The notes under the pieces were generated by a model. It was not told where the DNA came from. It worked only from the letters and a program-made list of their open reading frames with translations, and did not search any database. Shown in pieces: positions 12,795 through 63,086 of a stretch of 64,000 bases of DNA (positions are counted from its first letter, which is position 1; each line of letters opens with the position of its first letter). The translations under genes were made by a program, and so were the position numbers. This DNA comes from a bacterium (lineage in GTDB: Bacteria > Hydrothermota > UBA3073 > JACQXS01 > JAQTXJ01), in assembly GCA_028716385.1 (NCBI GenBank), contig JAQUPX010000003.1, positions 248,001-312,000 on the forward strand. The letters are read 5' to 3'.

Positions 12795-14498
12795 TTACTT
12801 CACTAATACAATTTTTCCTGTCTTGGTAAAATTGTCTGCTTTTAAACGGTAAAGATAAATACCCGCGCTTTGTGATTTAGTGTTCCATTGAATCTTCTTA
12901 TTTCCCACAGTTTCTACCGCATTTACTAAAGTATTTATTTTCTTCCCGGCAATGTCATATATCTCTAACTTTACACTCATCTCTATAGGCAAAGCAAATT
13001 CTATCGTAACAATTTGTGAATAAGGTTTAGCATAAGTCTTAACGATTAATTTGTTATTTGTTAAATCATTTGCCGTTTCTTCCACGCTTGACGGACAAAA
13101 TGTATGTTTCAATGGCACTTGAGCAAGCCATGTATTGTGCCAAATCCAACTGGGAAGTTCTTTTCTCGGAACGGTAAGGTCGTCGTTAATGTTGGTAATG
13201 TGATAGTTATATTCATTCATTAGGTTTCTTAAATCTTTCCATCCTGTGGAACTCAATGCTCCGAATCCATAAACTCCATAAATAGCGACTAATTCGCTGT
13301 GCCCGTCATTGTTTATATCCGCTACGCCCGGAAATTCATACGCCGTGCGCGAAGAAAATTGAGTATTACGATAAAAAGGATTTCCGCTGCCGTCAGGATG
13401 TTTACCATCAGCCCCATTGAATACTTCAAGAAAATTTCCACACCATGCCGCCACTCTGAGATTATCCTCTATCTCCCAGATAAACGCTCCTTCCGCGGAA
13501 CCACCCCATATGTTGTCATACGCCGGTTCTTGCCATACCATATCTATCCCTGTTCTGGCTACATTCTCCCGAACACAATACAATCTTTGCGTAGACGTAT
13601 CTGTCAAACCTTTTGCATAAGAAAACATAAGCATTTCCGGCAGAGAATCAGGAAGAAAATCAAGGTCTGCAATTGCTATGGCAGACCGCACGCCATATCC
13701 AATCGGTGTCACTCGCGCACCCCATTTTAGACTGCCGTCTTTTTCAAAGCAAAATATGCTGTCTCCCCCTGAAGAAACAATCTCCGGCTCACAATCGCTA
13801 TTCAAATCTGCAATGCTTATTTCACCGCCTACGCCAACACTATCGGATTCCCAACGCAAACTGCCGTCAGTCCCATTTAAACAGAAAATCCTGCCCTTGC
13901 TCGTTGTGAGAATTGCAGGCGCAAGCGTAGTATCTATTCTTTCAATAACGGGAGTTGTAACGCCTGCCAGAGTATCTCCAACAAAATATGTCCATTTTAT
14001 ACTGCCGTTACTGTTAAGACAAAATAGAATTCCGCGAGGACTTCCAAATAATATTTCAGGGTCTCCCGTAGTATCTACATTTGCTATGGCAGGTGAGCCT
14101 CCATAACGTGAAGCCGACCCCATAGGAAAACTCCATTTTAAACTGCCGGTGGCAGCATTTAAACAGTAAAGTTTTATCCCTTCATTCGCAACTACAACCG
14201 ATGCCGTATCACTGTTGTCTATTATAGCCACTGCAGGCGAACAAAAATTCATATAAGAAGGGCTTCCCATAAAATATGACCATCTCAAAGTTCCGGTGCT
14301 GTTTAGAGAATAAATTTTTCCTATATTATCCGTAAACATAATTTCGCAAAGACTGTCGCCGCTTACATCCGCAATAGCCGGGCTGGAAAGTGTTATTGCC
14401 CAACTGTCATAAGACCACAACGTATCCGGACTTCCCCAGTTAGCTTGCAATTGAGAAGCAAAAAACAATACACAGAAAAACATAAACCCTTTTTTCAT
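12795..14498 (-). CDS. Secreted FG-GAP/PQQ-like beta-propeller with C-terminal sorting domain
   Basis: From the ATG at 14498 (ribosome site GGAGGTAAG directly upstream; an ATG at 14540 is in frame but has none) the protein has 567 residues. A signal peptide (MKKGFMFFCVLFFASQLQA) is followed by repeated blades of about 45-50 residues with PAIADVSGD, PAIANVDTTGD, ISIADLNSD and similar Asp-rich calcium-binding loops. The last 85 residues form an immunoglobulin-like sorting domain (LEIYDIAGKKINTLV ... AGIYLYRLKADN ... GKIVLVK) like that used for type IX-type secretion. It is a cell-surface or released protein of unknown ligand. Confidence 0.82.
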   Translation of the reverse strand: MKKGFMFFCVLFFASQLQANWGSPDTLWSYDSWAITLSSPAIADVSGDSLCEIMFTDNIGKIYSLNSTGTLRWSYFMGSPSYMNFCSPAVAIIDNSDTASVVVANEGIKLYCLNAATGSLKWSFPMGSASRYGGSPAIANVDTTGDPEILFGSPRGILFCLNSNGSIKWTYFVGDTLAGVTTPVIERIDTTLAPAILTTSKGRIFCLNGTDGSLRWESDSVGVGGEISIADLNSDCEPEIVSSGGDSIFCFEKDGSLKWGARVTPIGYGVRSAIAIADLDFLPDSLPEMLMFSYAKGLTDTSTQRLYCVRENVARTGIDMVWQEPAYDNIWGGSAEGAFIWEIEDNLRVAAWCGNFLEVFNGADGKHPDGSGNPFYRNTQFSSRTAYEFPGVADINNDGHSELVAIYGVYGFGALSSTGWKDLRNLMNEYNYHITNINDDLTVPRKELPSWIWHNTWLAQVPLKHTFCPSSVEETANDLTNNKLIVKTYAKPYSQIVTIEFALPIEMSVKLEIYDIAGKKINTLVNAVETVGNKKIQWNTKSQSAGIYLYRLKADNFTKTGKIVLVK

Positions 14499-14763
14499 CT
14501 TACCTCCGACGAAATTTAAAACAGCAACTGTTTTTGTCATCGTTTTTATTAATTATTATCAGCTTACAATATATTTAAAATGGAAATAGAAAAAGTCAAG
14601 AGGCAAAATGTTTTTCCGAAATATTTAATTTTATAATTTTTTTCATCTGTTTATCCCTTAACCCTAAAACTTTTTTGTTCTTCAAGTTTATTCGTGCCCT
14701 TAGTCTGTTACTGTTTTTTAATCTCTCGGAGTTACTTCTCTGTTCGGTTTGTACCGTCTAGGA

Positions 14764-15936
14764 TTATCCCGCAAAAAGCTTTAAATTCTCTTTCAGGTAT
14801 AATTTCTGTTTGCTGTCAAGTAATTCGGTGTTTATTGAAAATACTAACACGCTGTTTGTACACTTTTCTCTTAATTTTTCTAACCAACTTGCTGTTTTCT
14901 TCCACCCGTTAACCATTATAATTTCATTAAGACAATCCACAAGTATTACAGCCGTTTTTGTTTTCTTTATGAAATCTAAAATCGTGGAACTCATAAATTC
15001 AATATCTTTATACCCAATTGTATCTTTTTCGCTTCCCTTAAAAGTTATATGGATTATAGGGGTATATAATATTTTATATTCCTCTCTTATTTTTTCAGCC
15101 GGGAATTTACTAAAACATAAGCCGGGTATTCCGTGTGAAATCTGATCTATAAATACTTTATAAGCCCTGTTGGAATTTTCTTCTTTTGTGAAATAAATAG
15201 TCCCTTTTTCTAATTTAAACATTAAAGGAGCAGACGTATCGTTTTCTTTTACGGGACTAATAAATAATTTATACCTAAAAATAGAATAGAAAGTGCTGCC
15301 CGCCCATACTATGGTAATTCCCGTTCCAAGTTCAGGTAGGAGAATACCATATAAAGGAAAAACAACATTGGATAATGTCCCTATTAACCATGCGGTTGTG
15401 TATCCCAAAAGTATAGGTCTGACCTGTTTTTTCTCTGGCGGAGTTCCTTTTCTTAATATATAAAGGAATAAAGAAACCGCAAAAAGATATAGAATTGTAT
15501 AATAACTGCTATACGTCCATGCAAATTTTCCCGGGAGACTTGTATACCCCCAGTACATTTTTACCGCTTCGTTTATATAGATTGAGTCTGTGAATAAAAA
15601 CAAATATAAAAACAAAAGTGGCGGCAAATACAAAAATAAGTATGTAAAAATATTTTTCAGGTATTTTTCCTTTCTTGCAAAAATTATTGCAAAATGAAGA
15701 TAAAAACTCATCATAAAACACCAACCGGGACCTCCGAATTTTATCCATAAAAAAGCTGTTTCCTGCGTATCGGAAATTCTGTGTCCGAATTCACTTATTC
15801 CCCATATTGCAAAAGAAAAAGCCGTTAGCGCAAAAAGTTTATTTAATAGTTTTTTCGGGCTTTTGCAACATACATATAATCCAAGTATAAGATTAAGAAG
15901 TCCCGCAACAAGAGAACATAATGCCCAAATATTCAT
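14764..15936 (-). CDS. Membrane sensor-like protein: 7TM N-domain plus DUF835 (copy A)
   Basis: A 390-residue protein. Residues 1 to about 215 contain seven hydrophobic segments, as in the N-terminal 7TM domain of some histidine kinases. The C-terminal part from about 240 (GTIYFTKEENSNRAYKVF, GIPGLCFSKFP, TAVILVDCLNEIIMVNGW, VLVFSINTELLD) is a DUF835 domain, a cytoplasmic module mostly seen in archaea and a few bacteria. There is no kinase or output domain. It is a tandem duplicate of the gene 51 bp upstream; the DUF835 halves are far more alike than the membrane halves. Likely signalling, mechanism unknown. Confidence 0.8.
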   Translation of the reverse strand: MNIWALCSLVAGLLNLILGLYVCCKSPKKLLNKLFALTAFSFAIWGISEFGHRISDTQETAFLWIKFGGPGWCFMMSFYLHFAIIFARKEKYLKNIFTYLFLYLPPLLFLYLFLFTDSIYINEAVKMYWGYTSLPGKFAWTYSSYYTILYLFAVSLFLYILRKGTPPEKKQVRPILLGYTTAWLIGTLSNVVFPLYGILLPELGTGITIVWAGSTFYSIFRYKLFISPVKENDTSAPLMFKLEKGTIYFTKEENSNRAYKVFIDQISHGIPGLCFSKFPAEKIREEYKILYTPIIHITFKGSEKDTIGYKDIEFMSSTILDFIKKTKTAVILVDCLNEIIMVNGWKKTASWLEKLREKCTNSVLVFSINTELLDSKQKLYLKENLKLFAG

Positions 15937-15987
15937 TTAATTAAATAATATCAACCTTTCTGTCCGCTCAGTACTCTAAAATCGTGC

Positions 15988-17160
15988 TTATCCCGCGAAA
16001 AACCTCAAATTCTCTTTCAGGTATAATCTTTGCTTTTTATCCAGTAATTCGGTATTTATTGAAAATAATAATACACTGTTTGTACACTTTTCTTTTAATC
16101 TTTCTAACCAGCATAATGTTTTTTCCCACCCGTTAATCATTATAATTTCATTAAGACAATCCACAAGTATCACGGCCGTTTTTGTTTTCTCTATGAAATC
16201 TAAAATCGTGGAACTTATAAATTCAATGTCTTTATACCCAATCGTATCTTTTTCTCTTCCCTTGAAAGTTACATGGATTATAGGAGTGTATAATATTTTG
16301 TACTCCTCTCTTATTTTTTTAGCCGGGAATTTACTAAAACATAAACCGGGTATTCCGTGCGAAACCTGGTCTATAAATACTTTATAAGCCCTGTTGGAAT
16401 TTTCTCCTTTTGTGAAATAAACAGTTCCTTTTTCTAAATTAAATATTAAAGGGATAGATGTTTCGTCCTCTTTTACCGGGATAATAAATAATTTATACTT
16501 TAAAATAGAATAAAAAGCTCCCGTTGCTGTGGTTAGAGCAATAATTGTTCCAAGTTCAGGAATAAGAATGCCATGCCAAGGAAAGATAACGTTTGACAGT
16601 GTCCCGATTATTAATGTAGCTGTATATCCCCAAAGCATAGGTATTACCTGTTTTTTTTCAATAGTAGTGCCATACTTTAATACTTGAATGAATAAATAGA
16701 TTCCCCAAAAGTAGGAAATCGTATAATAAGCGGTATATACCCAGATGAATTTTCCCGGGAGACTTGTATATCCCCAGTACATTTTTGTCGCTTCATTTAT
16801 ATAGATTAAGTCGGTGCTTAAAAATAAATGTAAGAATAAAAGACAGGGCGCATATAAAATTATGTAAGCGGAAACCTTCTTTAAATAATTAGTTTTTCGT
16901 GCAAATAATAATGCAAAGTGGATGTAAAAACCTACCATAAAGCACCAACCGAACCCGCCTGCTTTTATCCATAAAAGAGCTGTTTCCGGGGTATTGGCAA
17001 TTCTGTGCCCAAATTCACTTATTCCCCATATTGCAAGGGAAAGTGCAAATAGTGCAAAAATTCTGTTTAATGGATGCCGGGGATTTTTACAATACACATA
17101 TAACCCCAGAGTAAGATTAATTAGCCCCGTAATAAGAGAACATAATGCCCAAATATTCAT
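15988..17160 (-). CDS. Membrane sensor-like protein: 7TM N-domain plus DUF835 (copy B)
   Basis: Same length (390 aa) and layout as copy A. Both begin MNIWALCSL and end with almost the same DUF835 domain (TAVILVDCLNEIIMINGW, SINTELLDKKQRLYLKENL). The seven membrane segments differ more (for example LGTIIALTTATGAFYSIL here versus LGTGITIVWAGSTFYSIF). Copy B is the promoter-proximal member: a TTGACA-N17-CATACT promoter lies 45 nt upstream, and copy A is presumably cotranscribed. Neither start has a ribosome site, but both share the sequence TTAATTAAATG. Confidence 0.8.
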   Translation of the reverse strand: MNIWALCSLITGLINLTLGLYVYCKNPRHPLNRIFALFALSLAIWGISEFGHRIANTPETALLWIKAGGFGWCFMVGFYIHFALLFARKTNYLKKVSAYIILYAPCLLFLHLFLSTDLIYINEATKMYWGYTSLPGKFIWVYTAYYTISYFWGIYLFIQVLKYGTTIEKKQVIPMLWGYTATLIIGTLSNVIFPWHGILIPELGTIIALTTATGAFYSILKYKLFIIPVKEDETSIPLIFNLEKGTVYFTKGENSNRAYKVFIDQVSHGIPGLCFSKFPAKKIREEYKILYTPIIHVTFKGREKDTIGYKDIEFISSTILDFIEKTKTAVILVDCLNEIIMINGWEKTLCWLERLKEKCTNSVLLFSINTELLDKKQRLYLKENLRFFAG

Positions 17161-17699: not shown

Positions 17700-20426
17700 A
17701 TGAATAACTATAAATGTATGTTAATCGTTTTTGCATTGTCTGTTTCTGCAGTCTATGGAAGCAGATGGAGCTATACAAACGACCTTATCGTAGGAAACTC
17801 AGGGTTTGAGTGTGCCGGATTGCCTGACGGAAGAGTAATGATAATGGGCGGATTAAACGAAAGCGGTTATTACCAAACCTTCATCCCTGCAACAGGAAAA
17901 TGGACAAGAACGGCTCTACCTGCAAGCTCTAGTCATGACATGGCTATTTTACTTTATAATGGTAAAATGTTGTATTTATCCGGATCGAATTTCTGGTTTT
18001 TCCAGCCGGATAGCAATAATTGGCGCAGCGCAGGCGTAAGTCTCCCAAGCTGGAGCAGTTGGAATTGCTATACAATGTTAAAAGATGGACGGGTGCTTAT
18101 CATTTATAATGGACAGAATTGCCAACTCTATGATTATAGCTCTAATACTGTGAGTGCGACCGGATCAACCAGCGTAATACACGGCACGGCAGTGGAAGTC
18201 CTCCTGCCAAACGGAAAGGTCCTTCTATCGGGTGGACAGGCAGTAGGTATTAAAACATGCGAACTATATGATCCGGCATTGGGCTTATGGAGCCTCACGG
18301 ATCCTATGAAATTTAACAGAACAACACATGTAGGCGTTCTTCTTCCGCCCCCCTGGGATAAAGTGTTAATGACCGGGAAACACGAGCCAACCGAACTATA
18401 TGATCTGATGTCAGAAACATGGAGCTCGACGGATACTATGGAAGAACCGGAGGCAACCATAGAAGCGCTGGCATTATTGCCAAACGGAAAAGCTTTGGTA
18501 GCAGGAGGATCCGACTTGAAAACTTGCAGGCTCTTTGACCCGGACGCGGAACAATGGACTACCGTAGACCTTATGAACATCGCAAGAGACCATTTCTCTT
18601 TATCAATATTATATACGGGAAAAATATTGGCAATGGGAAGTCAAACGTCCGGCTACCCCACACAATGCGAAATATACGATCCCTCCAATGGATTCTGGCA
18701 AACAAAGGCAGAAACACTTAACACTGCCCGTCAGTATGCCACAACTACGATTTTACCCATAAAACATACGGCTAACTGTTCGACAAACGTTCTTATAAGC
18801 GGTGGTGAAAATACAGGCGGTACAGCGCTTAGTTCTTGCGAATTGTATAATTATAAAAATGGAATAATAGCAGTTACAGGCTCCCTCAATACTGCCAGAA
18901 CTCATCATACAACTGTCTTGCTTGCATCAACAACGGGAGAAGTCCTTGCCGCAGGAGGCAAAAATACGGTTGCTTTAAGTTCCTGTGAAATATTCGACCA
19001 GACAACACAAGTGTGGAATTCAACGGGCGCAATGGCAGCGGCAAGATTTGACCATAGCGCAACGTTACTCGGAGACGGAAGAGTTTTGGTAACGGGAGGA
19101 GAAGGAGCAGGTTATTTAAATACTTGCGAGGTATTTAACAGTGGAGCATGGTCATCGGCAGGAACAATGACAACGGCAAGAGCAAGACACAATGCGATAA
19201 TATTACTTAATGGAAATATAATGGTAATCGGTGGAGAAACAACGGGAGGCGTACCGACAGCTACCTGTGAAATCTGGAATGGTACAGACTGGACAACGGT
19301 ACCGGCAGCATCAATGTCTACGGCACGAAGTTTACATACGGCAACATTATTACAATCGGGCAAAGTATTGGTAGTCGGAGGAAGAGGAGCAGGCGGAACG
19401 GCATTAAACAGTTGTGAAATATATGACCCGGATCTAAATACGTGGACTGCGGAGACAAATTTGAATACCGCAAGATACGGACATAATACGATTTTTCTTT
19501 ATTCGGGGATTGTGTTAGTTACTGGTGGAACGGATGGGACGAATTATTTTGCATCATCCGAATTATGGGACCCGGCAGCAGAGTTGGACAGGGCAACGGG
19601 AAAACACGGTTGGAAAGTATCTGCTAATCTAGGAACGGGAAGAGCATATCATTCGTCAATTCTTGTGCCGTACCTGAAACCTTATGTTTATACAATAGGT
19701 GGATCTAACGGAGGAGGGGCGCTAAGTTCTGTTGAGCAATATGATATAGGGCTTGGTTACCAGAGTATATGGCAGTCAACAATAACAAATTATAAATCGG
19801 TTACACAAATATCGTCTACTATGAATATGTCAGGAACGCTATTACGCGGAGTATCCGAAGCAGACGGAGGAAACTACTGTCATGTCGCATCTAATGACCA
19901 TCCGATTATATCGCTTGTACGCGCAGGAGGAGGAAACTGGCAGGGAAACGGCGGAGGAGAAATAATGCTTATGCCGCATAGTACATCCTGGGACAGCGCA
20001 CATACAAATGTCGTAGGATTACCAACGGTATCGGGATATTACAGGTTATGGTCAATAGTAAACGGGATTCCTTGTAAATGGGATTGGAACTGCAGTGCAG
20101 GAAAAGAAGAGGGGAATCCGGGATTAAAGGTAATGGGGTTACAAATATATCCCAATCCTGCTACTACACAAACGGGTGTTAATTTTAAGTTATTAGGGGG
20201 CAGCGGAGAACAGGCTGTTAGCTTGCAAATATATGACTTAACGGGAAGGCTAGTTAAGAAGTTGTTAATTTCTTCTAAGCAAGGGGGATCCGATTCAAAA
20301 GGGAGTTTTACTGCTATCTGGGATGGAATAAATAATGACGGCAAAAAAGTAAAAAGCGGAATTTATTTCTATTCTATCAAATGTAAAGATTCGGAATATA
20401 AAGGGAAATTTGCTATTTTGAAATAG
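17700..20426 (+). CDS. Large secreted Kelch-repeat protein with C-terminal sorting domain
   Basis: A 908-residue protein with signal peptide (MNNYKCMLIVFALSVSAVYG). It has about a dozen Kelch motifs: repeated LLPNGKVLLSGG, GDGRVLVTGGEGAG, ILLNGNIMVIGGETT, each about 48 residues, enough for two beta-propellers. Several blades pair a cysteine (SSCELYN, NTCEVFN, NSCEIYD). Residues from about 820 on are a sorting-type domain (LQIYDLTGRLVKKLL ... SGIYFYSIKCKDSE ... KFAILK). Ribosome site AAGGAGG is strong. Probably cell-surface exposed and binding, not catalytic; a galactose-oxidase-like role is possible because the fold overlaps, but no catalytic Cys-Tyr pair could be pinned down. Confidence 0.85.
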   Translation: MNNYKCMLIVFALSVSAVYGSRWSYTNDLIVGNSGFECAGLPDGRVMIMGGLNESGYYQTFIPATGKWTRTALPASSSHDMAILLYNGKMLYLSGSNFWFFQPDSNNWRSAGVSLPSWSSWNCYTMLKDGRVLIIYNGQNCQLYDYSSNTVSATGSTSVIHGTAVEVLLPNGKVLLSGGQAVGIKTCELYDPALGLWSLTDPMKFNRTTHVGVLLPPPWDKVLMTGKHEPTELYDLMSETWSSTDTMEEPEATIEALALLPNGKALVAGGSDLKTCRLFDPDAEQWTTVDLMNIARDHFSLSILYTGKILAMGSQTSGYPTQCEIYDPSNGFWQTKAETLNTARQYATTTILPIKHTANCSTNVLISGGENTGGTALSSCELYNYKNGIIAVTGSLNTARTHHTTVLLASTTGEVLAAGGKNTVALSSCEIFDQTTQVWNSTGAMAAARFDHSATLLGDGRVLVTGGEGAGYLNTCEVFNSGAWSSAGTMTTARARHNAIILLNGNIMVIGGETTGGVPTATCEIWNGTDWTTVPAASMSTARSLHTATLLQSGKVLVVGGRGAGGTALNSCEIYDPDLNTWTAETNLNTARYGHNTIFLYSGIVLVTGGTDGTNYFASSELWDPAAELDRATGKHGWKVSANLGTGRAYHSSILVPYLKPYVYTIGGSNGGGALSSVEQYDIGLGYQSIWQSTITNYKSVTQISSTMNMSGTLLRGVSEADGGNYCHVASNDHPIISLVRAGGGNWQGNGGGEIMLMPHSTSWDSAHTNVVGLPTVSGYYRLWSIVNGIPCKWDWNCSAGKEEGNPGLKVMGLQIYPNPATTQTGVNFKLLGGSGEQAVSLQIYDLTGRLVKKLLISSKQGGSDSKGSFTAIWDGINNDGKKVKSGIYFYSIKCKDSEYKGKFAILK

Positions 20427-23929: not shown

Positions 23930-24679
23930 TTAAGAATTTTTCTTTAATACTTTTTTTAAGTATAAAATAATTTCTGTATGTAGTTGACATACTCTTGACT
24001 CCGATAAATCCAGCGTTTTCGCTATTTCTTTGTAAGTTAAATCTTCATAATAATAGAGAGTTATCAATAATCTCGATTTCTCCGGCAACCCATTTAGCAT
24101 TTTGAGAAGATTTTCCTTTCTTTCTTCATCCTGAACAACGGAAAGTAATCCCGGTTCTTTACTTGCAATGGAGTCTTCATTGCTTATCCCGTCTTCATCC
24201 TGGGATAAATCAAAACTAATCAATTGCGGTGTTCTCGTCTCTTCTAATAGTTTATGAAATTTTTCTTTTGTTGTGCCCAGTTCATTTATCACTTCTTCTT
24301 CTGTCGGCATTCTGTGCAGTTTTTCGGATAATTTCGAATATGTTGTTTCAAGAGTCCTGATTTTTTCCTCTGTACCTGCAGATTTCCAGTCCAAAGCTCT
24401 GAAGCCGTCAAGTATTGTTCCTCTTATACGATAGAACGCATAAGTTTTGAATTTAACTCCTTTTGTTGGGTCGTAACTATCGATCGCTTTAATTAAGCCT
24501 ATTATTCCCTGGGATATTACGTCTTCTATATCTATGGCAGTTGGTAGATACAAGGCGAATCTATTTGCTACCCAACGAACAAAAGGAATCCATTTCTTTA
24601 TTTCTTCTTCTTTTGCTTTAGGAGTTTGTGCCGCCTTGTATTGTGAAATAGCATTATTATGTTTCGGCATTTGCGTCAA
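23930..24679 (-). CDS. fliA: Flagellar sigma factor FliA (sigma-28)
   Basis: A 249-residue FliA/WhiG-type sigma factor: region 2 (FVRWVANRFALYLPTAIDIE, ISQGIIGLIKAIDSYDP, VKFKTYAFYRIRGTILDGFR), region 3 (KLHRMPTEEEVINELG) and region 4 (LPEKSRLLITLYYYEDLTYK and SRVCQLHTEIILYLKK). It directs RNA polymerase to late flagellar promoters, such as the near-consensus one before flagellin at 2749-2775. The frame opens at a TTG (24679) that overlaps the flhG stop (TTGA) with GAGG four bases upstream; an ATG at 24670 is the alternative. It follows flhF-flhG as in many flagellar operons. No anti-sigma factor FlgM is visible in the window. Confidence 0.93.
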   Translation of the reverse strand: MTQMPKHNNAISQYKAAQTPKAKEEEIKKWIPFVRWVANRFALYLPTAIDIEDVISQGIIGLIKAIDSYDPTKGVKFKTYAFYRIRGTILDGFRALDWKSAGTEEKIRTLETTYSKLSEKLHRMPTEEEVINELGTTKEKFHKLLEETRTPQLISFDLSQDEDGISNEDSIASKEPGLLSVVQDEERKENLLKMLNGLPEKSRLLITLYYYEDLTYKEIAKTLDLSESRVCQLHTEIILYLKKVLKKNS

Positions 24680-25890
24680 TCTACCTCAACAGGTTCGTCA
24701 TTTTGGATTTTATTTATAAGAATATTGGAAGGGCGAAATTGGGGAATCTTATTTTCTTTTATTTCCATAGAATCCTGTAATCCCGGTATATAATACTTTC
24801 TTCCTTTTCTTATTTTATTCCTAAATAGACCAAATCCCTGTATTCTAACTTCTTCATCCTTACCAAGAGTATCTGTAATAGTCAAGAGGATTTTTTCTGT
24901 TATCTCAATACTTTTTTTTTTAGACACTTCAAGAGAAGAGGATATTGTAGAGGCAAGCTCTTTTTTGCTGGTTTTTTTTGTCTGTACTGATGACTTCGTG
25001 GTTGGCTTATCTTCCTGCTCGGCAGGTAATACACCTGAGATGGACTGCTCGATAGGCAGGGCAGAAACTTCCGTTATTCTTTCAAATAAACTTTTCGCTC
25101 CTTCTTGTCTGCTTTTTAATGCCTTTATCCCGTTTGCAATCTTTTTGATACACACGGATGCTCTGGAATATGGTTTAGCTGTTATAAATGGTCTCTGGGA
25201 TTCCACTGCTTCGCCGACTGCAGGGTCTTCATATACAAACCCAAAATTTTCTATTTCAAGTTTCAGAAATTTAGATGTTAATAATCCTATTCGTTCCACC
25301 GTATCGGTCGCCTGCTTTTCACTTTTTACCCTGTTTACGATTATTTTTATGCTGGGTGAGTTTTTGTTCATAGTTACAACTTTTATCGTTGCATAAGCAT
25401 CTGCAAGGGAAGTTAATTCAGGGGTCGTTATGATCACGACCTCATCCGAAACTAAAAGAAAATCTCTTACATTTTTTGATATCCCGGCAGCTGTGTCTAT
25501 GAATATAAAATCAAATTCGTTTTCTAATTCCGTAAATGCTTTTATAAATTTATTGCTTTTTTCACTGTCTAAATCTGCAAGCTCCTCTATACCACTTGCT
25601 GCAGGTATTATTTTTAAATTACATGGCCCGTTTACTATTATATCTTTTAATTCTTTATTCCCTAAAATTACGTCTTTTATGTTGAAATCCGGGGATATTC
25701 CAAATAATAAATCTACATTTGCAAGAGATAGGTCGGCATCAAGTAATAATATGTTAAGTCCTTCGTTGGCAAGACAAACTGCTATATTTACTGCAATATT
25801 TGTTTTGCCTACGCCACCTTTACCTGACGTAAAACCAATGATTTTAGGTCCGTTTACAATTTCCCTCAGTTTGCTTGCCTGATCCGTCAT
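24676..25890 (-). CDS. flhG: FlhG (MinD-like ATPase) fused to a C-terminal HU/IHF DNA-binding domain
   Basis: 404 residues. The first about 265 are FlhG/YlxH, the MinD-type ATPase that counts and places flagella with FlhF: deviant Walker A SGKGGVGKTN (22-31), LLDADLSLANVDLLFG, IDTAAGISKNV, IIVNRVKSE. A charged linker (about 277-306) contains two palindrome-encoded phrases (ALPIEQ, VLPAEQ). Residues about 307-404 align along their whole length with HU/IHF: SKKELASTISSSLEVSKK, the turn EEVRIQGFGLFR, the basic arm RKGRKYYIPGLQDSM, and NKIPQFRPSN. I know of no described FlhG with this domain. IHF-type bending between enhancer and sigma-54 promoter is the obvious possible job (inference). flhF ends 1 nt upstream. 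Confidence 0.9.
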   Translation of the reverse strand: MTDQASKLREIVNGPKIIGFTSGKGGVGKTNIAVNIAVCLANEGLNILLLDADLSLANVDLLFGISPDFNIKDVILGNKELKDIIVNGPCNLKIIPAASGIEELADLDSEKSNKFIKAFTELENEFDFIFIDTAAGISKNVRDFLLVSDEVVIITTPELTSLADAYATIKVVTMNKNSPSIKIIVNRVKSEKQATDTVERIGLLTSKFLKLEIENFGFVYEDPAVGEAVESQRPFITAKPYSRASVCIKKIANGIKALKSRQEGAKSLFERITEVSALPIEQSISGVLPAEQEDKPTTKSSVQTKKTSKKELASTISSSLEVSKKKSIEITEKILLTITDTLGKDEEVRIQGFGLFRNKIRKGRKYYIPGLQDSMEIKENKIPQFRPSNILINKIQNDEPVEVD

Positions 25891-25891
25891 T

Positions 25892-27274
25892 TTATTTTTC
25901 CCACCTTTCTTTTAACTCCCAGATATGAGATATTATCTTTGAACTGTTTGCTCGTTCTATATCATCTGGTATGGATTGTCCCGTTGTTAGATATGAAATT
26001 GGTTTTTTGGATAAAAAAGGCGATTCTAATAATGTGCCGAAAGACGAAGTCTCATCCAATTTTGTGAAAACTAATTTTCCCGGACATAAAACATCGTAGT
26101 TTTTTATAATGTCTGCAATGTCTTTAGTTTTCGTAGTAAGCGAGATAACAAGATGTATCTCATCGGGTTTTATAAGATTGAAAAATGTGCAAAGTTCGGA
26201 TATGTATTTTTCGTTCTTTTGACTGCTTCCGGCGGTGTCTATGAAAATAACGTCCATATCTTTAAACTTTTCTAAAGAATTAGGAAAATCCATAGCCGAA
26301 AAAACTACCTCTATAGGAATGTCTACTATTTTAGCAAAAGTATTAAGTTGCTCAACCGCCGCAAGCCTATATGTATCAATCGTAATTAAAGCCACTTTTA
26401 GCTTATCGTATATGGTAAAATTACTTGCAATTTTTGCTATTGTTGTTGTCTTCCCTGTCCCGGTTGGGCCAATAAAGGCTATTAAATACGGAACATTCCG
26501 CTTTGTAACTGATTGTGATGGTGAAGATGTTTTCTCTCCGCCTGATGCGGACTTGCCATTAGATTTACCTGATGCGGGCTCGACAGACAGGTAATCTAAA
26601 ATAGGTTTTAGAGATATAGGAGAACTAGAAATTAGAGAGGAAAGTAAAGATTTAATACTCTCTTCGGAGGAAGAAGTCCCGGTCGATTTGTCCATAGAAG
26701 GTAATAAATTTAGCTTGCTATTAATTAAATTAGTAATAATTGAGGCGGTGTCTGCTTGAATACCTGAAGCAACTAATTTATTAAAGAGTGGTGGAAAATT
26801 TACTGCCTCAGAACATTGAATAAGAGAAGACAGGTCGGATACTTGCTTCCCAAACGAATGGATTTGATTCTTAAGTTCGGATAATTGGGATTCAACATTA
26901 GATAACTGCCCGCTGTCGGGTACGTTTTTCCCATTTTGACGAGAGTCAGGCGAAAAACCTGCAAATTTTGAAGGAGTGTCCGTATTAAATGCGTAATCGC
27001 CACCGGCTTGCCTGCCGTTAGGCATGGAACGGGATGTCCCATTAGAATTATCTTGTCCATTGACAGAGATGTTTTTCCCTCCTGCTTGCTCGTTAGGCAG
27101 GGAGACATTCGTATCTGCTTTTACTCCGGGTAAATCTGTGGCTGCAAGCATTTCTATTTCTTCCGTGTCTTCTATTCTATTTGTAGCAAGTATAACTGCA
27201 TCCGGACCAAGGTCTTGTTTGACCATTTCGATTCCTTCTTTAATACTTTTTGCTCTATATTTCTTTATGTTCAA
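25892..27274 (-). CDS. flhF: Flagellar GTPase FlhF
   Basis: A 460-residue SRP-type GTPase that determines where flagella are placed. The N-terminal B domain (YRAKSIKEGIEMVKQDLGP, AVILATNR) is followed by a disordered linker (about 50-120) and, after a helical N part, the G domain from about 263: IGPTGTGKTTTIAKIASNF, TIDTYRLAAVEQLNTFAKIV, IDTAGSSQKN, VFTKLDETSSFG. The start is a TTG at 27274 preceded by GGGAGGTGA. The linkers contain at least four mini-palindromes read in frame (peptides SLPNEQAGG, NGTSRSMPNGRQAGG, SVEPASGK, KSASGGEK). It is coupled to flhG and follows flhA. Confidence 0.95.
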   Translation of the reverse strand: MNIKKYRAKSIKEGIEMVKQDLGPDAVILATNRIEDTEEIEMLAATDLPGVKADTNVSLPNEQAGGKNISVNGQDNSNGTSRSMPNGRQAGGDYAFNTDTPSKFAGFSPDSRQNGKNVPDSGQLSNVESQLSELKNQIHSFGKQVSDLSSLIQCSEAVNFPPLFNKLVASGIQADTASIITNLINSKLNLLPSMDKSTGTSSSEESIKSLLSSLISSSPISLKPILDYLSVEPASGKSNGKSASGGEKTSSPSQSVTKRNVPYLIAFIGPTGTGKTTTIAKIASNFTIYDKLKVALITIDTYRLAAVEQLNTFAKIVDIPIEVVFSAMDFPNSLEKFKDMDVIFIDTAGSSQKNEKYISELCTFFNLIKPDEIHLVISLTTKTKDIADIIKNYDVLCPGKLVFTKLDETSSFGTLLESPFLSKKPISYLTTGQSIPDDIERANSSKIISHIWELKERWEK

Positions 27275-27285
27275 GCTGTCACCTC

Positions 27286-27316
27286 CCTGCCGTTAGGCAG
27301 GTCCCGCTATAGCGGG
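27286..27316. repeat. Pair of palindromes forming the end of flhA
   Basis: CCTGCCGTTAGGCAGG (27286-27301) next to CCCGCTATAGCGGG (27303-27316). Read on the minus strand they supply the last codons of flhA (PAIAGPA) and its TAA stop, then run directly into the flhF ribosome site. Confidence 0.85.
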
Positions 27317-29359
27317 ATTAATTTCTCCTAATGAATTTATTGGTACTCTTGAATCAAGTTCCGAAAAAGATAAAACTACTAAATTGGGAAAAATAGGCGT
27401 TATAAGTTTCCTTAAATAATTTCGTAATCTCGGCGAAGATATAATGATTGGTTGGTAGTTCTGTAAAGCAAGTTTTTCTATCCATTTTGATATTTCAATA
27501 AATAATGATTGGGCAAGCTTTGGCTCAATAGAAAAACCTGAATCTGTATGATTCTTCTCGATTGAATCTAAAATAAGTTGTTCGAATCTGGGCTCTATTG
27601 AAACACAATTGATTTTACCATTGGAATCTTTATATTGTTGAGAAATATTACGCTTAAGCGCCTGACGGGTAAATTCGGTAAGCTGGTCAATGTCTTTAGT
27701 TACCGGAGCATAATCTGCAAGTGCCTCAAGAATGGTAACGGTGTCTCGGATAGATATCCTTTCCGCAAGTAGGTTTTGGAAGACTTTCTGGATGTCGCCG
27801 ATTTTCATTATGTTTGGAATAAGTTCGTTCACAACTGCCGGATGGGTTTCTTTTGCCCTATCAATAATTACTTGAGCTTCTTGTCTGCCGAGAAGCTCGT
27901 TAGCATATGATTTTATGGTCTCCTGGAGATGCGTCGTAACAACAACCGAAGGCTCAACTATCGTATATCCAAGCGCTTCGGCTCTGTTTCGTTCCTTCCT
28001 TGTAATCCAGTAAGCAGGTAAATTAAATACCGGCTCTGTCGTTTCTTCCTCATCTAATTTCTGTTTGGCAGAACCCGGGTTCATAGCAAGTAACCCTTGC
28101 AAAAATACTTTACCTTTTGCAATTTCAGTCCCTTTGACTTTAATAACATATTCTTCAGGTTGAAGTTCAAGATTGTCTCTAATACGCACAGGAGGGACAA
28201 CAAACCCCAATTCAGAGGCAATTCTTTTCCGCAAAAAGCCGATCCTGTCAAGCAAATCGCCTCCCTTTTCTTTATCCACTAAATTGATATTGCCGTAGCC
28301 AAGCTCTATTTCAATCGGGTCAATTCGTAATGTTTTGTTCCAGTCTTCTACTTCTTCTGCCTTACCGGTAGATAGCGTCGGCTTATTCGATACCTCTGTA
28401 GTCGTACTTTTTTGAATTAAATAACCAATGCCGCCAATAAGCGCGGAAAGAAAAAAGAATGGGAAAAAAGGAAAACCGGGCACTATCGCACAAACAAATA
28501 ACGCACCCGACACAATAAATAAAACCTTAGAGTTAACAAGCATTTGAGAAATTATATCTCTGCCAAGGTCAGACTCCGATGCCATCCTTGTAACAAGAAT
28601 ACCGGATGCAGTAGCGATTATGATAGCAGGTATTTGAGCAACAAGTCCGTCTCCGATAGTAAGAATAGTATAAATGCCAACGGCAGATTGAGCCGGCATA
28701 TGTCTTTGAAATATTCCTATACATAAACCACCGACAATGTTAATAGCCGTAATAAGTAAGCCGGCAACAGCATCTCCTCTGATAAATTTAGATGCTCCGT
28801 CCATAGCTCCGTAAAAGTCGGTTTCTCTGCGAATCTCAATCCTTCTCTCTTTTGCTTCTGTTTCGGTAATTAAGCCGGTGTTAAGGTCTGCATCTATGGC
28901 CATTTGCTTCCCGGGCATACCGTCCAATGTGAATCTTGCCGCAACTTCAGCAATTCTTGTCGCACCTTGCGTAATTACGACAAATTGAATTATTATTATG
29001 ATGATAAAAATTACTACCCCGACAATATAATTTCCTCCTACAACAAAATTTCCGAAAGCGTATATAACTTTCCCTCCATCTGCATTCAAAAGAATGGAAC
29101 GAGTAACTGCCACATTCAATCCAAGCCTTAAAAGTGTGGTGAGAAGCAAAATAGAAGGAAAAGAAGCGATATCCAGCGGTTTATGGATATACATAGTCGA
29201 TACGATAAGCAAAAGAGAAAAAGCAATGTTGAAAATTATGAAAATATCAATAATAAAAGTGGGAAGCGGGACGATAAGAATGGCTATAATAGTAAGAACA
29301 CCGATTGCAACAACAATAGTGCCTTGTTTCGCAAGCCTTTCCGTAAAAAGATTATTCAT
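27293..29359 (-). CDS. flhA: Flagellar export gate protein FlhA
   Basis: A 688-residue inner-membrane protein of the type III export gate. Eight membrane segments fill residues 1 to about 310 (VVAIGVLTIIAILIVPLP, FIIDIFIIFNIAFSLLLI). Between TM segments 4 and 5 lies the conserved FHIPEP-type loop, with LLLTTLLRLGLNVAVTRSIL and MPGKQMAIDADLN before and in it. The cytoplasmic domain (about 330-688) recruits substrates and chaperones (DYAPVTKDIDQLTEFTRQAL, PIIISSPRLRNYLRKLI). Its last eight residues are encoded by palindromic repeats. No ribosome site is evident before the ATG; a CCGCCTCAGGCGG palindrome lies 20 nt upstream. Confidence 0.96.
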   Translation of the reverse strand: MNNLFTERLAKQGTIVVAIGVLTIIAILIVPLPTFIIDIFIIFNIAFSLLLIVSTMYIHKPLDIASFPSILLLTTLLRLGLNVAVTRSILLNADGGKVIYAFGNFVVGGNYIVGVVIFIIIIIIQFVVITQGATRIAEVAARFTLDGMPGKQMAIDADLNTGLITETEAKERRIEIRRETDFYGAMDGASKFIRGDAVAGLLITAINIVGGLCIGIFQRHMPAQSAVGIYTILTIGDGLVAQIPAIIIATASGILVTRMASESDLGRDIISQMLVNSKVLFIVSGALFVCAIVPGFPFFPFFFLSALIGGIGYLIQKSTTTEVSNKPTLSTGKAEEVEDWNKTLRIDPIEIELGYGNINLVDKEKGGDLLDRIGFLRKRIASELGFVVPPVRIRDNLELQPEEYVIKVKGTEIAKGKVFLQGLLAMNPGSAKQKLDEEETTEPVFNLPAYWITRKERNRAEALGYTIVEPSVVVTTHLQETIKSYANELLGRQEAQVIIDRAKETHPAVVNELIPNIMKIGDIQKVFQNLLAERISIRDTVTILEALADYAPVTKDIDQLTEFTRQALKRNISQQYKDSNGKINCVSIEPRFEQLILDSIEKNHTDSGFSIEPKLAQSLFIEISKWIEKLALQNYQPIIISSPRLRNYLRKLITPIFPNLVVLSFSELDSRVPINSLGEINPAIAGPA

Positions 29360-33377: not shown

Positions 33378-34340
33378 TTACCTCCTTTTATATGGATTCG
33401 TAATTTTAGATGCCATTCTCATTTTATAAACTCCCGGTTTACCAAACCATTTCTTTTTATCTTCTACATAAACAACTATTTCACTGTCTGTATGAAGGTT
33501 TAACGGTATTATATCCCCTGCTTTCAATTCCAATAAATCAGAAACGTGGATGCTTGACCGTCCAAGTTCTACAAAAACATTGACTCTTACATGCATTAAT
33601 ATTTGTTTGATTTTTTCCTGGAGTTCAACATTGACGGTTTTTCTCGTTGCACGATCGTGAGTTATAACATCGGCAATGAGAGCCCTTGCAACTTCTGTAG
33701 AATATGCAAGCCGCAGAGACATAGTAATATCGTCAAGTGTTAAGGAAAAAGAGACACTAAGAATGGGAGCGGTAGATTCCGGAGGGGCGATAGTTAATGG
33801 GTTGGTTTGCTGAGATACTACTTTTGCAGATACTGCAACATATTTTCCCCATGCTTTTTCAAGGTCAGTAAGTAATGTTCTGGCAATTTTAGGCATAGCT
33901 GCGCGTTCAATAATGGTTATGTCAGGTGGATTTTTTGCGATTCTTCCGTTTCCTCCAAATTCCATATCTACGAGCGTGTGGACAAACGAGGGGGATATTT
34001 CCATAAATACATCCCCAACCGCAGGGTCAAGTTTGAACATAAGAATGTAAGTAGGATTAGATGCCGAAGAGATAAACTCACCAAGTGTGCTGACTTCCGG
34101 CTCGGAAGTTATCATATTGACGAAGTTTCCGGTTCTCGTAGAAATTGATTGTTCAAAAAGAAAATCAAAATATTCATTGATTTCTTTAAATATAGGAAAG
34201 TGGTCTCTTGTAATACCCAGATATCTTTTGATATCGTATTCTTCTATCTTTTTCTCTTTAGTAGGAGTATCTGTCTTACTTTTAGGAACAGTTTTTAACA
34301 AAGTGGAAATTTCTTCCTGCGACAATATTCTTTCTTCCAT
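33378..34340 (-). CDS. fliM: Flagellar motor switch protein FliM
   Basis: 320 residues. The N-terminus EERILSQEEISTLL corresponds to the start of FliM before the CheY-binding core; the middle domain has FVNMITSEPEVSTLGEFISS and MEISPSFVHTLVDMEFGGNG, including the GGNG-type FliG contact loop; the C-terminal SpoA domain reads VNVFVELGRSSIHVSDLLEL. FliM bridges FliG and FliN and reverses the motor. It directly follows motA; fliL, often in between, is absent. Confidence 0.95.
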   Translation of the reverse strand: MEERILSQEEISTLLKTVPKSKTDTPTKEKKIEEYDIKRYLGITRDHFPIFKEINEYFDFLFEQSISTRTGNFVNMITSEPEVSTLGEFISSASNPTYILMFKLDPAVGDVFMEISPSFVHTLVDMEFGGNGRIAKNPPDITIIERAAMPKIARTLLTDLEKAWGKYVAVSAKVVSQQTNPLTIAPPESTAPILSVSFSLTLDDITMSLRLAYSTEVARALIADVITHDRATRKTVNVELQEKIKQILMHVRVNVFVELGRSSIHVSDLLELKAGDIIPLNLHTDSEIVVYVEDKKKWFGKPGVYKMRMASKITNPYKRR

Positions 34341-47002: not shown

Positions 47003-47413
47003 TTATTGTCTTCTTATACTTAGCGTTAAAAGCCTGTATTTGAAAGAAATTAAGTTAACATACGTATCCCAATCTAAAGAATTTTTTGCAAGCGAAACTA
47101 TTTCTTTATCTATTTCTATATTGTTGACCTTCCCTGCCGGAATCGGATCAGTTGATGTTTCAACCACGGGATTTACGTTGTTAATGTCGTTGTTAGCCCT
47201 GCCAACGGGTAAATGATTTTGATTTGTACGTGCACCGGATAATTTGAACCCGAGTTTTTCGTCAAGAAGTTCTTCAAACTTTACTTTTGATGAAGAATAT
47301 CCCGGGGTGGAGACGTTAGAAATATTCTGGGCAATTACCTTGTTTCTCAAAGCACTAACATCCAACCCTTTTTTTGAAGCACCAAAACCCATATCGTTAA
47401 AAATACTATTCAT
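47003..47413 (-). CDS. flgB: Flagellar proximal rod protein FlgB, first gene of the operon
   Basis: 136 residues. Rod-protein N-terminus (ALRNKVIAQNISNVSTPGYS) and C-terminus (NIEIDKEIVSLAKNSLDWDT, YVNLISFKYRLLTLSIRRQ). The sigma-54 promoter at 47431-47446 predicts a transcript start at 47420, so the leader is only about 7 nt and no ribosome site exists before the ATG. A second ATG at 47392 also lacks a ribosome site. It heads the roughly 25-kb flagellar operon. Confidence 0.94.
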   Translation of the reverse strand: MNSIFNDMGFGASKKGLDVSALRNKVIAQNISNVSTPGYSSSKVKFEELLDEKLGFKLSGARTNQNHLPVGRANNDINNVNPVVETSTDPIPAGKVNNIEIDKEIVSLAKNSLDWDTYVNLISFKYRLLTLSIRRQ

Positions 47414-47430
47414 AGTAATATATTATTAAT

Positions 47431-47446
47431 AGCAAATTTCGTGCCA
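47431..47446 (-). promoter_or_regulatory. Sigma-54 promoter of the flagellar operon (flgB)
   Basis: Minus strand TGGCAC-GAAAT-TTGCT, an exact match to the TGGCAC-N5-TTGCW consensus. The -12 C at 47432 puts the transcript start at about 47420, 7 nt before the flgB ATG. Confidence 0.92.
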
Positions 47447-47456
47447 AATTTAACAT

Positions 47457-47471
47457 TACCTATAATAGGTA
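47457..47471. promoter_or_regulatory. Palindrome upstream of the flgB promoter, possible operator
   Basis: TACCTAT-A-ATAGGTA, a perfect 15-nt dyad beginning 11 nt upstream of the -24 box. Its position and symmetry fit a regulator site, but no factor can be named. Confidence 0.4.
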
Positions 47472-47531
47472 TATAAAATAATAATTTCTTTAAAACCCAA
47501 TTTTTTTATAATAGGCAAAAAATTCCACCCG

Positions 47532-48581
47532 TTAGTCAATTATTTCCCCATCTTTTTTATATTGCCTGATTTTTTCTCTTATTGTCCGGATACTTACTTT
47601 TAACATTTTTGCTGTATTTGTCCGGTTCCCATTATTCTTTTTTAATGTCTCAATAATAACTTTCTTTTCTATTTCCTCTAATGATAATCCGATAAGTCCG
47701 TTTAATTGTACCTCACTTGAGTTATTGGAAAGATTGAGATGTGAAGTGAGAACAGAGGGAGAAGAATTAAGAATCACTGCCCTCTCTATTACATTTTCAA
47801 GTTCTCTTACATTGCCCGGCCAATTATAATTCAAAAGAATTTTTAATGCATCTGTTGAAATGGAATTTACCTGTTTATTGTAAAAAGTAGAGTATTTTCT
47901 TAAAAAATAAGCTGCAAGAACGGGAATATCCTCTTTTCTTTCCCTCAATGGTGGAATGTTAACGCTTACTACATTTAACCTGTAAAAAAGGTCTTCCCTG
48001 AGTTTTTGTTTTTCAATGGCTTCTTTTGGATTAAGGTTTGTTGTGGCAATTATCCTCACATCTACTTTTATTTCTTCGGAACCACCTACTCTAAAAAACC
48101 TAAATTCCTGTAATACACGAAGTAATTTTGCCTGGAGCATAAGCCCCATCTCTGAAATTTCGTCAAGAAGCAGAGTTCCCCCATTAGCAAGTTCAAATTT
48201 TCCTTTTCTTTTTTCTAATGCCCCGGTAAAGGCTCCTTTTTCATGACCAAAAAGCTCACTTTCCAACAACCCTTCGGAAATAGCCGCACAATTTATGGAA
48301 ATAAAAGGCTTATCTTTACAATTACTCTCGTAATGTATTGCCCTTGATACAAGTTCTTTCCCTGTTCCTGATTCCCCATATACTAAAACAGAAGCCCTGC
48401 TCTTCGCAACTGCACGAATTATTTCGTAGATTTCTTTCATTCCATCCGTTCTACCAACAAGCGGACCAAATCCATAAGACAGGTTCGCACGTTCAACCTT
48501 TTCCTGCAAAACCTTATACGCACCCTCTAAACGTTCTGCAGCAACATTGAATTCCGAAAATAATTCTGTCAGTTTAGCCAT
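47532..48581 (-). CDS. Sigma-54 enhancer-binding protein without receiver domain (flagellar regulator 1)
   Basis: 349 residues: a short coiled-coil N-terminus (LFSEFNVAAERLEGAYKVLQ), a complete AAA+ domain (Walker A VYGESGTGKELVSRAIHYES, GAFTGA loop in LFGHEKGAFTGALEKRKG, Walker B GGTLLLDEISEM, sensor RIIATTNLN, R-finger region LRERKEDIPVLA) and a Fis-type helix-turn-helix (NRTNTAKMLKVSIRTIREKI). Lacking a receiver, it may be constitutively active or controlled by partners such as FlhG. It has its own consensus sigma-54 promoter 17-32 nt upstream and lies just upstream of the flgB promoter, so it probably drives the operon and possibly itself. Confidence 0.92.
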   Translation of the reverse strand: MAKLTELFSEFNVAAERLEGAYKVLQEKVERANLSYGFGPLVGRTDGMKEIYEIIRAVAKSRASVLVYGESGTGKELVSRAIHYESNCKDKPFISINCAAISEGLLESELFGHEKGAFTGALEKRKGKFELANGGTLLLDEISEMGLMLQAKLLRVLQEFRFFRVGGSEEIKVDVRIIATTNLNPKEAIEKQKLREDLFYRLNVVSVNIPPLRERKEDIPVLAAYFLRKYSTFYNKQVNSISTDALKILLNYNWPGNVRELENVIERAVILNSSPSVLTSHLNLSNNSSEVQLNGLIGLSLEEIEKKVIIETLKKNNGNRTNTAKMLKVSIRTIREKIRQYKKDGEIID

Positions 48582-48597
48582 AGACAGATATTATAAT

Positions 48598-48613
48598 AGC
48601 AACAAATGTGCCA
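48598..48613 (-). promoter_or_regulatory. Sigma-54 promoter of enhancer-binding protein 1
   Basis: Minus strand TGGCAC-ATTTG-TTGCT, an exact consensus match. The -12 C at 48599 predicts a start at about 48587, leaving 6 nt before the ATG at 48581 and no ribosome site. Confidence 0.92.
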
Positions 48614-48624
48614 ATATATAAAAT

Positions 48625-49145
48625 CACCCAACCCAACACCCCAAAACCACTATCCAGCAAGCATTCACACCACTACACAAATAACCGCGTTCCAAATAGA
48701 CACAGGGGCAAATTGACACAGTTAGGTGTAGCATTTTGCCTCTGAGCTGCTTTAACCTAACAACAAATAACCTTGAGCTGTGGCTTTTTGTCTCGTATTA
48801 CAGTGGGGCATTTGTTCCTATATGTCACTTTGCTACAGTGTAGCATTTAGTCACAGTACAGTGTAGCATTTTGGGACTAGATCGCTTTTGCTTTATAATA
48901 AATACTCTCCAACTGTGGCTTTTTGTCTCGTATTGCAGTGGGGCATTTGTTCCTATATGTCACTTCGCTACAGTGTGGCAATTAGTCACAGTACAGTGTG
49001 GCAATTTGGAACTATGCTGTTTTGTGGCGATAAATGTCGATCTTTGGGTGTAGCTTTGTGCCACATTATTGTAATTAATTGTGTTGTAGTGGTGTTGTGT
49101 TGAATGTATTTTAGGGGTGGGGTGTTGTTTTTGGCTTTTGTATTA
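48625..49145. repeat. Array of TGTGGCATTT-type motifs with inverted flanks
   Basis: A roughly 520-bp noncoding block upstream of the promoter at 48598. Two long direct repeats start at 48778 and 48913 (period 135 nt, 7 differences in about 107 nt). Inside and around them the motif GTGTRGCATTTNGTC or close variants occurs about twelve times, for example at 48725, 48778, 48801, 48837, 48859, 48913, 48937, 48972, 48994, 49024 and 49048; near 48695-48720 it is in the opposite orientation. TGTGGCAATTAGTCACA (48974-48990) is an imperfect dyad. The outer 55 nt on each side are imperfect inverted repeats (CACACCACTACAC at 48665 versus GTGTTGTAGTGGTGTT at 49081). Likely an enhancer array for the sigma-54 activators; a mobile-element origin is also possible. 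No open frame. Confidence 0.75.
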
Positions 49146-49154
49146 GGCGGGATT

Positions 49155-50498
49155 TTATTGTGTTACGTTTTGCGTTTGGGATAATTGGGATATTATTTTG
49201 TATCTTTTAAGTTTCCTGTATAATGTTTTGCGGTCTATGCCGAGTAATTTTGCTGTTTTGAGTTTGTTGTTACCCGTTTGGGCGAGTGTTCTCTGGATGA
49301 GACTTTTTTGTGTATCATCCCATAAAACGGATTTTCGGTTTGGCATAAATCCTTTGCTTCCTCTTATTTTTAGAGGGATATCTGTTAATTTAATTAAACT
49401 GTTATTGCTGCTTGTAACGCAGGCGCTCTCTATTACATTTTCTAATTCTCTGATGTTTCCGGGCCAATCGTAAGAACATAGCGCCTCAAGGACTTCATCT
49501 GAAATCTGTTTTTTGTTTTGTCCTTTAGTTAAATTCAAAAAATGTTCTATTAGGAGAGGAATGTCTTCTCTTTTTTCTCTCAGTGGAACGGCTATTATAG
49601 AAACGACAAATAGTCTATGAAAAAAATCTTCTCTTATTTTTCCTTGTAAAACTGCTCTTTCAAGATCTTTGTTTGTAGCCGTAATAATACGACAATCAAT
49701 TTTATAATTTTGAGCGCTTCCGATAGACCTGACTTCTTTTTCTTCAAGAACTCTTAAGAGTTTTATCTGAATACTGTGAGGAATTTCCGCTATTTCATCA
49801 AGGAATATGGTTCCTTTTTCGGCTGCCCTAAAGATACCGGGATTATCTCGAGATGCGCCGGAATAAGCGCCCTTTACATGACCAAATAGTTCTGTCTCAA
49901 ATAGATTTTCCGGAATAGCACTGCAATTTACAGGTATAAATTTTGCATCTTTACGGAGGGAAAGATTATGAATGGTTCGCGCTATTAATTCTTTGCCGGT
50001 ACCGTTTTCTCCTTGAATACACACTGTGGAATTTGTTGGCGCCACATTTAAAATTTCCGAATAGAGTTGTTGCATTTTGGGAGAAACTCCTATTAACAAA
50101 CCAAGTCCGGTCCTTTCAAAAGGCTGTTCTTTAGTTACTACTTTATTCACACTTTCTAACACTTCTTTTTTATTGAGAGGTTTTGTTAAATAATCTAAAA
50201 CCCCGAACTTAATGCCACGAATCGCAATTTCAACTTTCGGAGTTGTAGATGTTAAAATAATATTTATCTCGGGATTCATTGCCGCCTTAAATTTCTGAAA
50301 AATATCTATTTCAATTTTATCTTTATTTTCCGTATCAAAAAAGGCAATATTAAAAAATATACTTTCAAGAAACTTGAAAAAATCTTTTACATTTGTGCAT
50401 TCTGTTATTTCAAAATTGAAATCTTTCAGGATGTTTCTTATACTGTCGCATCCTTCGTCAGAGGAATCATAAACAAGAACTTTATAATTATTATTCAT
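49155..50498 (-). CDS. Sigma-54 response regulator (flagellar regulator 2)
   Basis: 447 residues: an N-terminal receiver-like domain (1 to about 120) with candidate phospho-Asp D55 (IAFFDTENKD), Lys in DYLTKPLNKK, but only one acidic residue of the usual pair (VLVYDSSDE). Then the AAA+ domain: Walker A IQGENGTGKELIARTIHNLS, the sigma-54 contact loop as GHVKGAYSGASRDNPG (GAYSGA instead of GAFTGA), Walker B GTIFLDEIAEIP, sensor RIITATNKD, and a Fis-type HTH (NNKLKTAKLLGIDRKTLYRK). No histidine kinase gene is adjacent. It lies upstream of the motif array and of regulator 1 in the same direction. Confidence 0.9.
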   Translation of the reverse strand: MNNNYKVLVYDSSDEGCDSIRNILKDFNFEITECTNVKDFFKFLESIFFNIAFFDTENKDKIEIDIFQKFKAAMNPEINIILTSTTPKVEIAIRGIKFGVLDYLTKPLNKKEVLESVNKVVTKEQPFERTGLGLLIGVSPKMQQLYSEILNVAPTNSTVCIQGENGTGKELIARTIHNLSLRKDAKFIPVNCSAIPENLFETELFGHVKGAYSGASRDNPGIFRAAEKGTIFLDEIAEIPHSIQIKLLRVLEEKEVRSIGSAQNYKIDCRIITATNKDLERAVLQGKIREDFFHRLFVVSIIAVPLREKREDIPLLIEHFLNLTKGQNKKQISDEVLEALCSYDWPGNIRELENVIESACVTSSNNSLIKLTDIPLKIRGSKGFMPNRKSVLWDDTQKSLIQRTLAQTGNNKLKTAKLLGIDRKTLYRKLKRYKIISQLSQTQNVTQ

Positions 50499-50561
50499 AA
50501 AAAATTTGTCTAAGTTTTTATCACCGCTATCTGTATGAGGCGGAGATGTCCCATTTTATAA

Positions 50562-63070: not shown

Positions 63071-63086
63071 TGGCACAGAACTTGCT
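63071..63086 (+). promoter_or_regulatory. Sigma-54 promoter of the last glycosyltransferase
   Basis: TGGCAC-AGAAC-TTGCT, an exact consensus match on the plus strand. The -12 C at 63085 predicts a start at 63097, six bases before the ATG at 63103; no ribosome site. The 196 bp upstream (62875-63070) hold no gene; activator sites are not obvious. Confidence 0.9.

Follow-up and report, generated by a model that had tools for sequence, protein, structure and literature searches.

We identified, in an uncultured bacterium of the phylum Hydrothermota, a gene in which FlhG, the ATPase that governs the number and placement of flagella, is fused to a C-terminal domain of the HU/IHF fold. The gene, here named flhG-HU, lies in a flagellar cluster within the 64,000-nucleotide stretch of DNA that was analysed (the window; Table 1). 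The fusion claimed by a preliminary description of the window is real: it combines a match to PF00216, an HU fold in the predicted structure and an uninterrupted open reading frame. Such an evolutionary fusion suggests a common site of action for FlhG and an HU/IHF-type protein. Judging from its domains, the product, from a family normally tied to the membrane, probably holds DNA too. In our leading reading, advanced tentatively, FlhG would sit anchored on DNA, act on the sigma-54 activators of flagellar genes and bend their promoters.

Domain architecture of FlhG-HU

Table 1. Domains of FlhG-HU and features of the surrounding flagellar locus (window coordinates). G001, G002 and G007 are related genomes.
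Feature	Coordinates	Strand	Residues	Basis and remarks
flhG-HU	24676..25890	-	404 aa without stop	Single open reading frame; homologous frames in G001, G002 and G007
DQASKLR, matching the FlhF-stimulating enhancer-helix motif DQAxxLR	25864..25884	-	3-9	Sequence; motif per PMC12826062
MinD/FlhG-type ATPase, deviant Walker A GKGGVGKT	25105..25848	-	15-262	AAA_31 2e-22; fold matches
GAKSLFERITEV, short amphipathic helix where FlhG carries its membrane-targeting sequence	25063..25098	-	265-276	Alignment, model, hydrophobic moments
Flexible linker	24970..25062	-	277-307	Length and sequence differ among species; dN/dS 0.33; pLDDT <50
HU/IHF domain	24706..24969	-	308-395	Profile, PDB search, fold; arm at about 357-380, intercalation proline P369
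fliA-like flagellar sigma factor	23930..24679	-		Sequence and position; 4-bp overlap between its start and the flhG-HU stop
flhF, SRP-type GTPase	25892..27274	-		PF00448 3.5e-40; directly upstream of flhG-HU
flhA	27293..29359	-		PF00771 1.1e-264
Exact sigma-54 promoter match	47431..47446	-		Upstream of a long flagellar gene run (rod genes to fliA)
Sigma-54 activator	47532..48581	-		AAA+ and HTH_8, no receiver domain; GAFTGA intact
Exact sigma-54 promoter match	48598..48613	-		Upstream of the activator gene 47532-48581; identical site in G001
Second sigma-54 activator	49155..50498	-		Receiver, AAA+, HTH_8; GAYSGA replaces the GAFTGA loop; upstream of the first activator

For the N-terminal half, Pfam placed a MinD/ParA-type ATPase at about residues 16-255. 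The best fold match of the full-length model was a solved FlhG (4rz2, E 1e-22), followed by FleN (5j1j), and the other top matches included 7ejw and the FleQ-FleN complex 8p53. In common with FlhG/FleN (YlxH, MinD2), the protein has a MinD-type ATPase, a DQAxxLR helix (DQA.KLR is invariant in all four known fusions) and a gene directly downstream of flhF. However, FlhG is a single-domain protein according to a 2025 review (PMC12826062), and the ordinary protein ends at its membrane-targeting helix, about 256 residues past Walker A. Here a linker and an HU domain come after the helix, which makes FlhG-HU a variant of FlhG.

For the C-terminal half, PF00216 (Bac_DNA_binding) aligns to residues 308-395 across positions 2-89 of its 90-position profile (E 3e-15 for the full-length protein), and the isolated domain scored 60 bits (E 2.4e-16) versus a curated cut-off of 22.4 bits. 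A six-frame scan of the whole genome recovered the domain independently at 59.5 bits, along with five free-standing ordinary HU genes at 91-107 bits; fused domains scored 59-69 bits across four genomes. Searching PDB sequences with phmmer returned 30+ HU/IHF chains (best 1.8e-10), and the significant matches were solely HU, IHF and HU-type proteins. The alignment behind the full-length model was too shallow to judge the HU half, and the C-terminal domain was folded separately with AlphaFold2 on 25 HU/IHF sequences. These were HUs of related genomes, because a search for viral HU homologues gave almost nothing. The isolated domain is predicted to be an HU with a mean pLDDT of 91. All 50 PDB fold matches listed for it are HU, IHF or HU-type, with query-normalised TM-scores of up to 0.82 to HU (1p71, 5lvt) and 0.77 to IHF (1ihf).

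The landmarks named in the preliminary description (the QGFGLF turn, the basic arm RNKIRKGRKYYIPG and the PQFRPSN end) are all correct. It had assigned the C-terminal 98 residues to HU/IHF; the full domain is indeed present, but the domain proper comprises 88 residues and is followed by a 9-residue tail. The domain fits the general HU/IHF family, and IHF proper was rejected, as the isolated domain reached 33-46 bits versus cut-offs of 111-120 for the IHF equivalog models (himA/hip). Whereas a free HU is a small stand-alone protein, this one is the C-terminal domain of an ATPase, and it shares 22-28% identity with the free HUs that its own genome encodes.

With the HU/IHF family (PF00216) the domain shares the complete fold, the arm and the intercalating proline. 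P369 and R361 are invariant in the alignment of 25 fused and free HUs, and the basic arm with R361, R364, K365 and P369 is kept in all four fusions. From an alignment of the arm with Bacillus HU, we take R361, R364 and P369 to be the counterparts of R55, R58 and P63, and Y367 and N389 to stand in place of HU residues R61 and K83. Because these two positions are replaced, the affinity for DNA or the mode of binding may differ from that of classical HU.

Conservation and distribution

The fusion occurs in frame in four species of two families. FlhG-HU is 91% identical to its homologue in the congener G001, and 52% and 50% identical to those of two species of another family, with linkers ranging from about 25 to over 100 residues. 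In a phylogenetic tree the four fused HU domains group on a single branch, separate from the 21 free HUs (support 99/96), showing that they share one origin.

Could the join be an error of assembly or a frameshift that merged two genes? The relatives are draft or metagenome-assembled genomes, one of them named as a MAG, which leaves such an artefact conceivable in principle. However, homologues that are 91% to 50% identical, in frame in four of four species, with differing linkers, a single HU clade and purifying selection, rule it out, and we give it practically no credence. A frameshift revealing two separate genes in other assemblies, which the preliminary description had named as grounds for refutation, was thus not found.

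Selection was estimated between pairs of species with simple Nei-Gojobori counts over short stretches. Between the two congeners, dN/dS was lowest in the ATPase (0.024), intermediate in the HU domain (0.12) and highest in the linker (0.33); between the other two species the values were, in the same order, 0.07, 0.28 and 0.29. The ATPase and HU parts are under purifying selection, the linker much less so, and the HU domain evolves faster than the ATPase. In the two congeners no potential start codon (ATG, GTG or TTG) occurs in frame from residue 251 up to the HU domain, which in them is consequently made solely as part of FlhG.

The faster evolution of the HU domain bears on the idea that its main task is constitutive dimerisation of FlhG, or binding to some other HU-fold protein, with DNA binding being unimportant. 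HU is a strong dimer, and the changes to Y367 and N389 would fit such a role. However, a pure dimeriser would not have to retain the arm, and the basic arm with its arginines, lysine and proline persists in every fusion. We consider this role unlikely, and favour a domain that still engages DNA.

Within the phylum, flhA scored above its family cut-off in 4 of 147 genomes, exactly the four that encode FlhG-HU. Flagella, as judged by flhA, are confined to one order, a rarity that could reflect late acquisition by transfer or else extensive loss. With FlhG-HU in each of the flagellated genomes found, this lineage offers a natural test of whether FlhG acts on DNA.

Outside the phylum, we searched even samplings of the phyla of a Holophagaceae genome (the Acidobacteriota side) and of a Lachnospiraceae genome (the Bacillota side). 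FlhG/MinD matches at 1e-40 or better were found in 95 of 396 and 302 of 399 genomes, respectively, and among the matches listed none covered the HU part. Because the 1e-40 threshold could hide a separate HU match, we inspected 40 control FlhG loci of both phyla, picked mainly for long open frames (nearly all at least 350 residues). All 40 end 242-269 residues past Walker A, versus 373-445 in the fusions; their length is due to upstream reading frame, and the HU profile scored below 1 bit in them, versus 101-108 bits for the fusions. Among plasmid records none covers 80% of FlhG-HU, and the matches listed stop by residue 277; rare fusions may exist in phyla sampled solely via plasmid records. 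A widespread, previously described architecture can be set aside, as no HU was found on FlhG in the samples searched. The preliminary description knew of no report of such a fusion. Our search of openly accessible literature likewise returned none of FlhG joined to an HU domain or of an HU domain fused to MinD, in keeping with the single-domain FlhG of the 2025 review.

Sigma-54 promoters, membrane and nucleoid

As the preliminary description had proposed, the genomic setting places flhG-HU near sigma-54 regulation: the gene belongs to a same-strand flagellar run downstream of the 47431 promoter, and two sigma-54 activators adjoin. The promoter count was revised, in that both activators are present but three sigma-54 matches in the window are exact (47431, 48598 and 63071) rather than the four promoters counted. 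Matches with at most two mismatches number 34, above all of 100 shuffled sequences (mean 20), and solely the three exact ones are convincing. For the match at 47431, a site with one mismatch lies near the corresponding gene pair of G001. The neighbouring pair of activator genes also occurs in G001 and G007. The activator at 47532-48581 is 99% identical in G001 and 65% identical in G007. The second activator, given its altered loop, may make weak contact with sigma-54 or may regulate the first.

FlhG-HU brings together components known from Pseudomonas. There, FleN dimers bind FleQ, stimulate its binding to DNA and inhibit its ATPase; FleN also participates in DNA bending, and the fleSR promoter is drawn with IHF (PMC10723142). 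FleN-like and IHF-like parts in one chain are therefore a reasonable reading of FlhG-HU. The two systems have in common an FlhG-family ATPase, a sigma-54 activator, an HU-fold bender and flagellar promoters (PMC10723142); FleN and IHF are separate proteins in Pseudomonas, whereas here their counterparts form one polypeptide and contact with the activator is putative.

We propose that a working FlhG, a MinD-type ATPase that regulates FlhF, gained its own DNA-binding and DNA-bending module. ATP-dependent dimerisation of FlhG, together with the dimeric nature of HU, would bring two HU domains together, and the pair would bind DNA with little sequence preference, most likely anchoring FlhG there. 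The flexible linker, at about 25 to over 100 residues, would let the ATPase half reach its partners. So anchored, FlhG could restrain the sigma-54 activator of the flagellar operon at the promoter, as FleN does FleQ, while supplying the bend that IHF provides elsewhere. Once the C-ring (FliM, FlhF) is complete, it would pull FlhG away from the DNA and so alter transcription.

Consistent with action at promoters are the recovery of the HU domain in profile, PDB sequence and fold comparisons, its invariant P369 and R361, its constraint relative to the linker within the genus (dN/dS 0.12 versus 0.33) and its production in the congeners solely as part of FlhG. The exact sigma-54 sites and the activator pair in the flagellar cluster, a pair shared with two relatives, point the same way, as do the roles of FleN and IHF in Pseudomonas. 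Several observations argue against it. The R61 and K83 positions of HU are replaced, the domain falls below the IHF equivalog cut-offs, and no exact IHF consensus site was found within 47400-50600. The genome also encodes five free HU proteins, which could provide the bend at these promoters by themselves. In addition, contact between FlhG and an activator is characterised in monotrichous species only; almost nothing is known of links between FlhG and transcription outside them, according to the 2025 review (PMC12826062), and it is on this question that FlhG-HU bears. We hold the promoter role, which the preliminary description had raised as a union of flagellar counting and promoter architecture in one polypeptide, as the foremost of the candidates, short of probable.

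The membrane-targeting region raises a second possibility. The full-length model has a helix at 268-276, and each of the four fusions retains an amphipathic SLFERI helix, so membrane binding has probably not been lost. However, alignment with ordinary FlhGs and hydrophobic moments indicate that this helix falls short of its Bacillota counterparts in length and hydrophobicity, and the HU domain comes after it. The HU domain might give FlhG the nucleoid as a positioning matrix, ParA-like, either alongside the membrane or instead of it. FlhG-HU would then keep flagellar assembly or FlhF activity off the nucleoid, or else anchor the flagellar pole to the chromosome, with no promoter specificity. 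The long, variable linker and the little sequence preference of HU binding would suit this, and ParA-type ATPases use nucleoid DNA whereas MinD/FlhG types use the membrane (PMC10241942). Against a replacement of the membrane stands the retention of the amphipathic helix. We regard the nucleoid role as the other strong candidate, somewhat less likely than action at promoters.

Like ParA, McdA, PomZ and MipZ, FlhG-HU would pair a deviant Walker A ATPase with DNA binding, but its ATPase itself is of the MinD/FlhG type. In that group DNA is contacted through basic residues of the ATPase, as described for ParA, McdA and ParC (PMC10241942); here binding is predicted to occur via the added HU domain. 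FlhG-HU could thus be a hybrid positioning ATPase, of the membrane class and also using chromosomal DNA, in which the nucleoid sets the number or place of flagella, or in which membrane-bound assembly is physically linked to flagellar transcription. We offer this as a conjecture of limited confidence. ParA/MinD ATPases are currently sorted by the surface that they use, nucleoid or membrane, with FlhG placed among the membrane users; if the hybrid exists, the division between nucleoid-using ParA and membrane-using MinD/FlhG breaks down.

Other features of the window

The third exact sigma-54 match (63071-63086) is on the plus strand near the end of the window. In the 540 bp between the activator genes, a motif like GTGTGGCATTTTG is repeated about ten times in one direction at 48726-49060. 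A similar array lies near the corresponding genes in G001, and a few degenerate copies are present in G007. The copies may be sites, upstream of the 48598 promoter, at which an activator binds.

A gene named from its sequence as FliM (33378-34340) encodes a protein starting LSQEEISTLL, which we take to resemble the N-terminal FliM motif bound by FlhG in other species.

Elsewhere in the window, two adjacent genes at 14764-17160, apparently a duplication, encode proteins of 390 aa each that combine a 7TM histidine-kinase sensor region with DUF835 in place of a kinase domain. Two large beta-propeller or kelch-like secreted proteins are also encoded, one (12795-14540) with a Por_Secre_tail sorting domain and the other (17700-20426) ending in a tail that looks similar.
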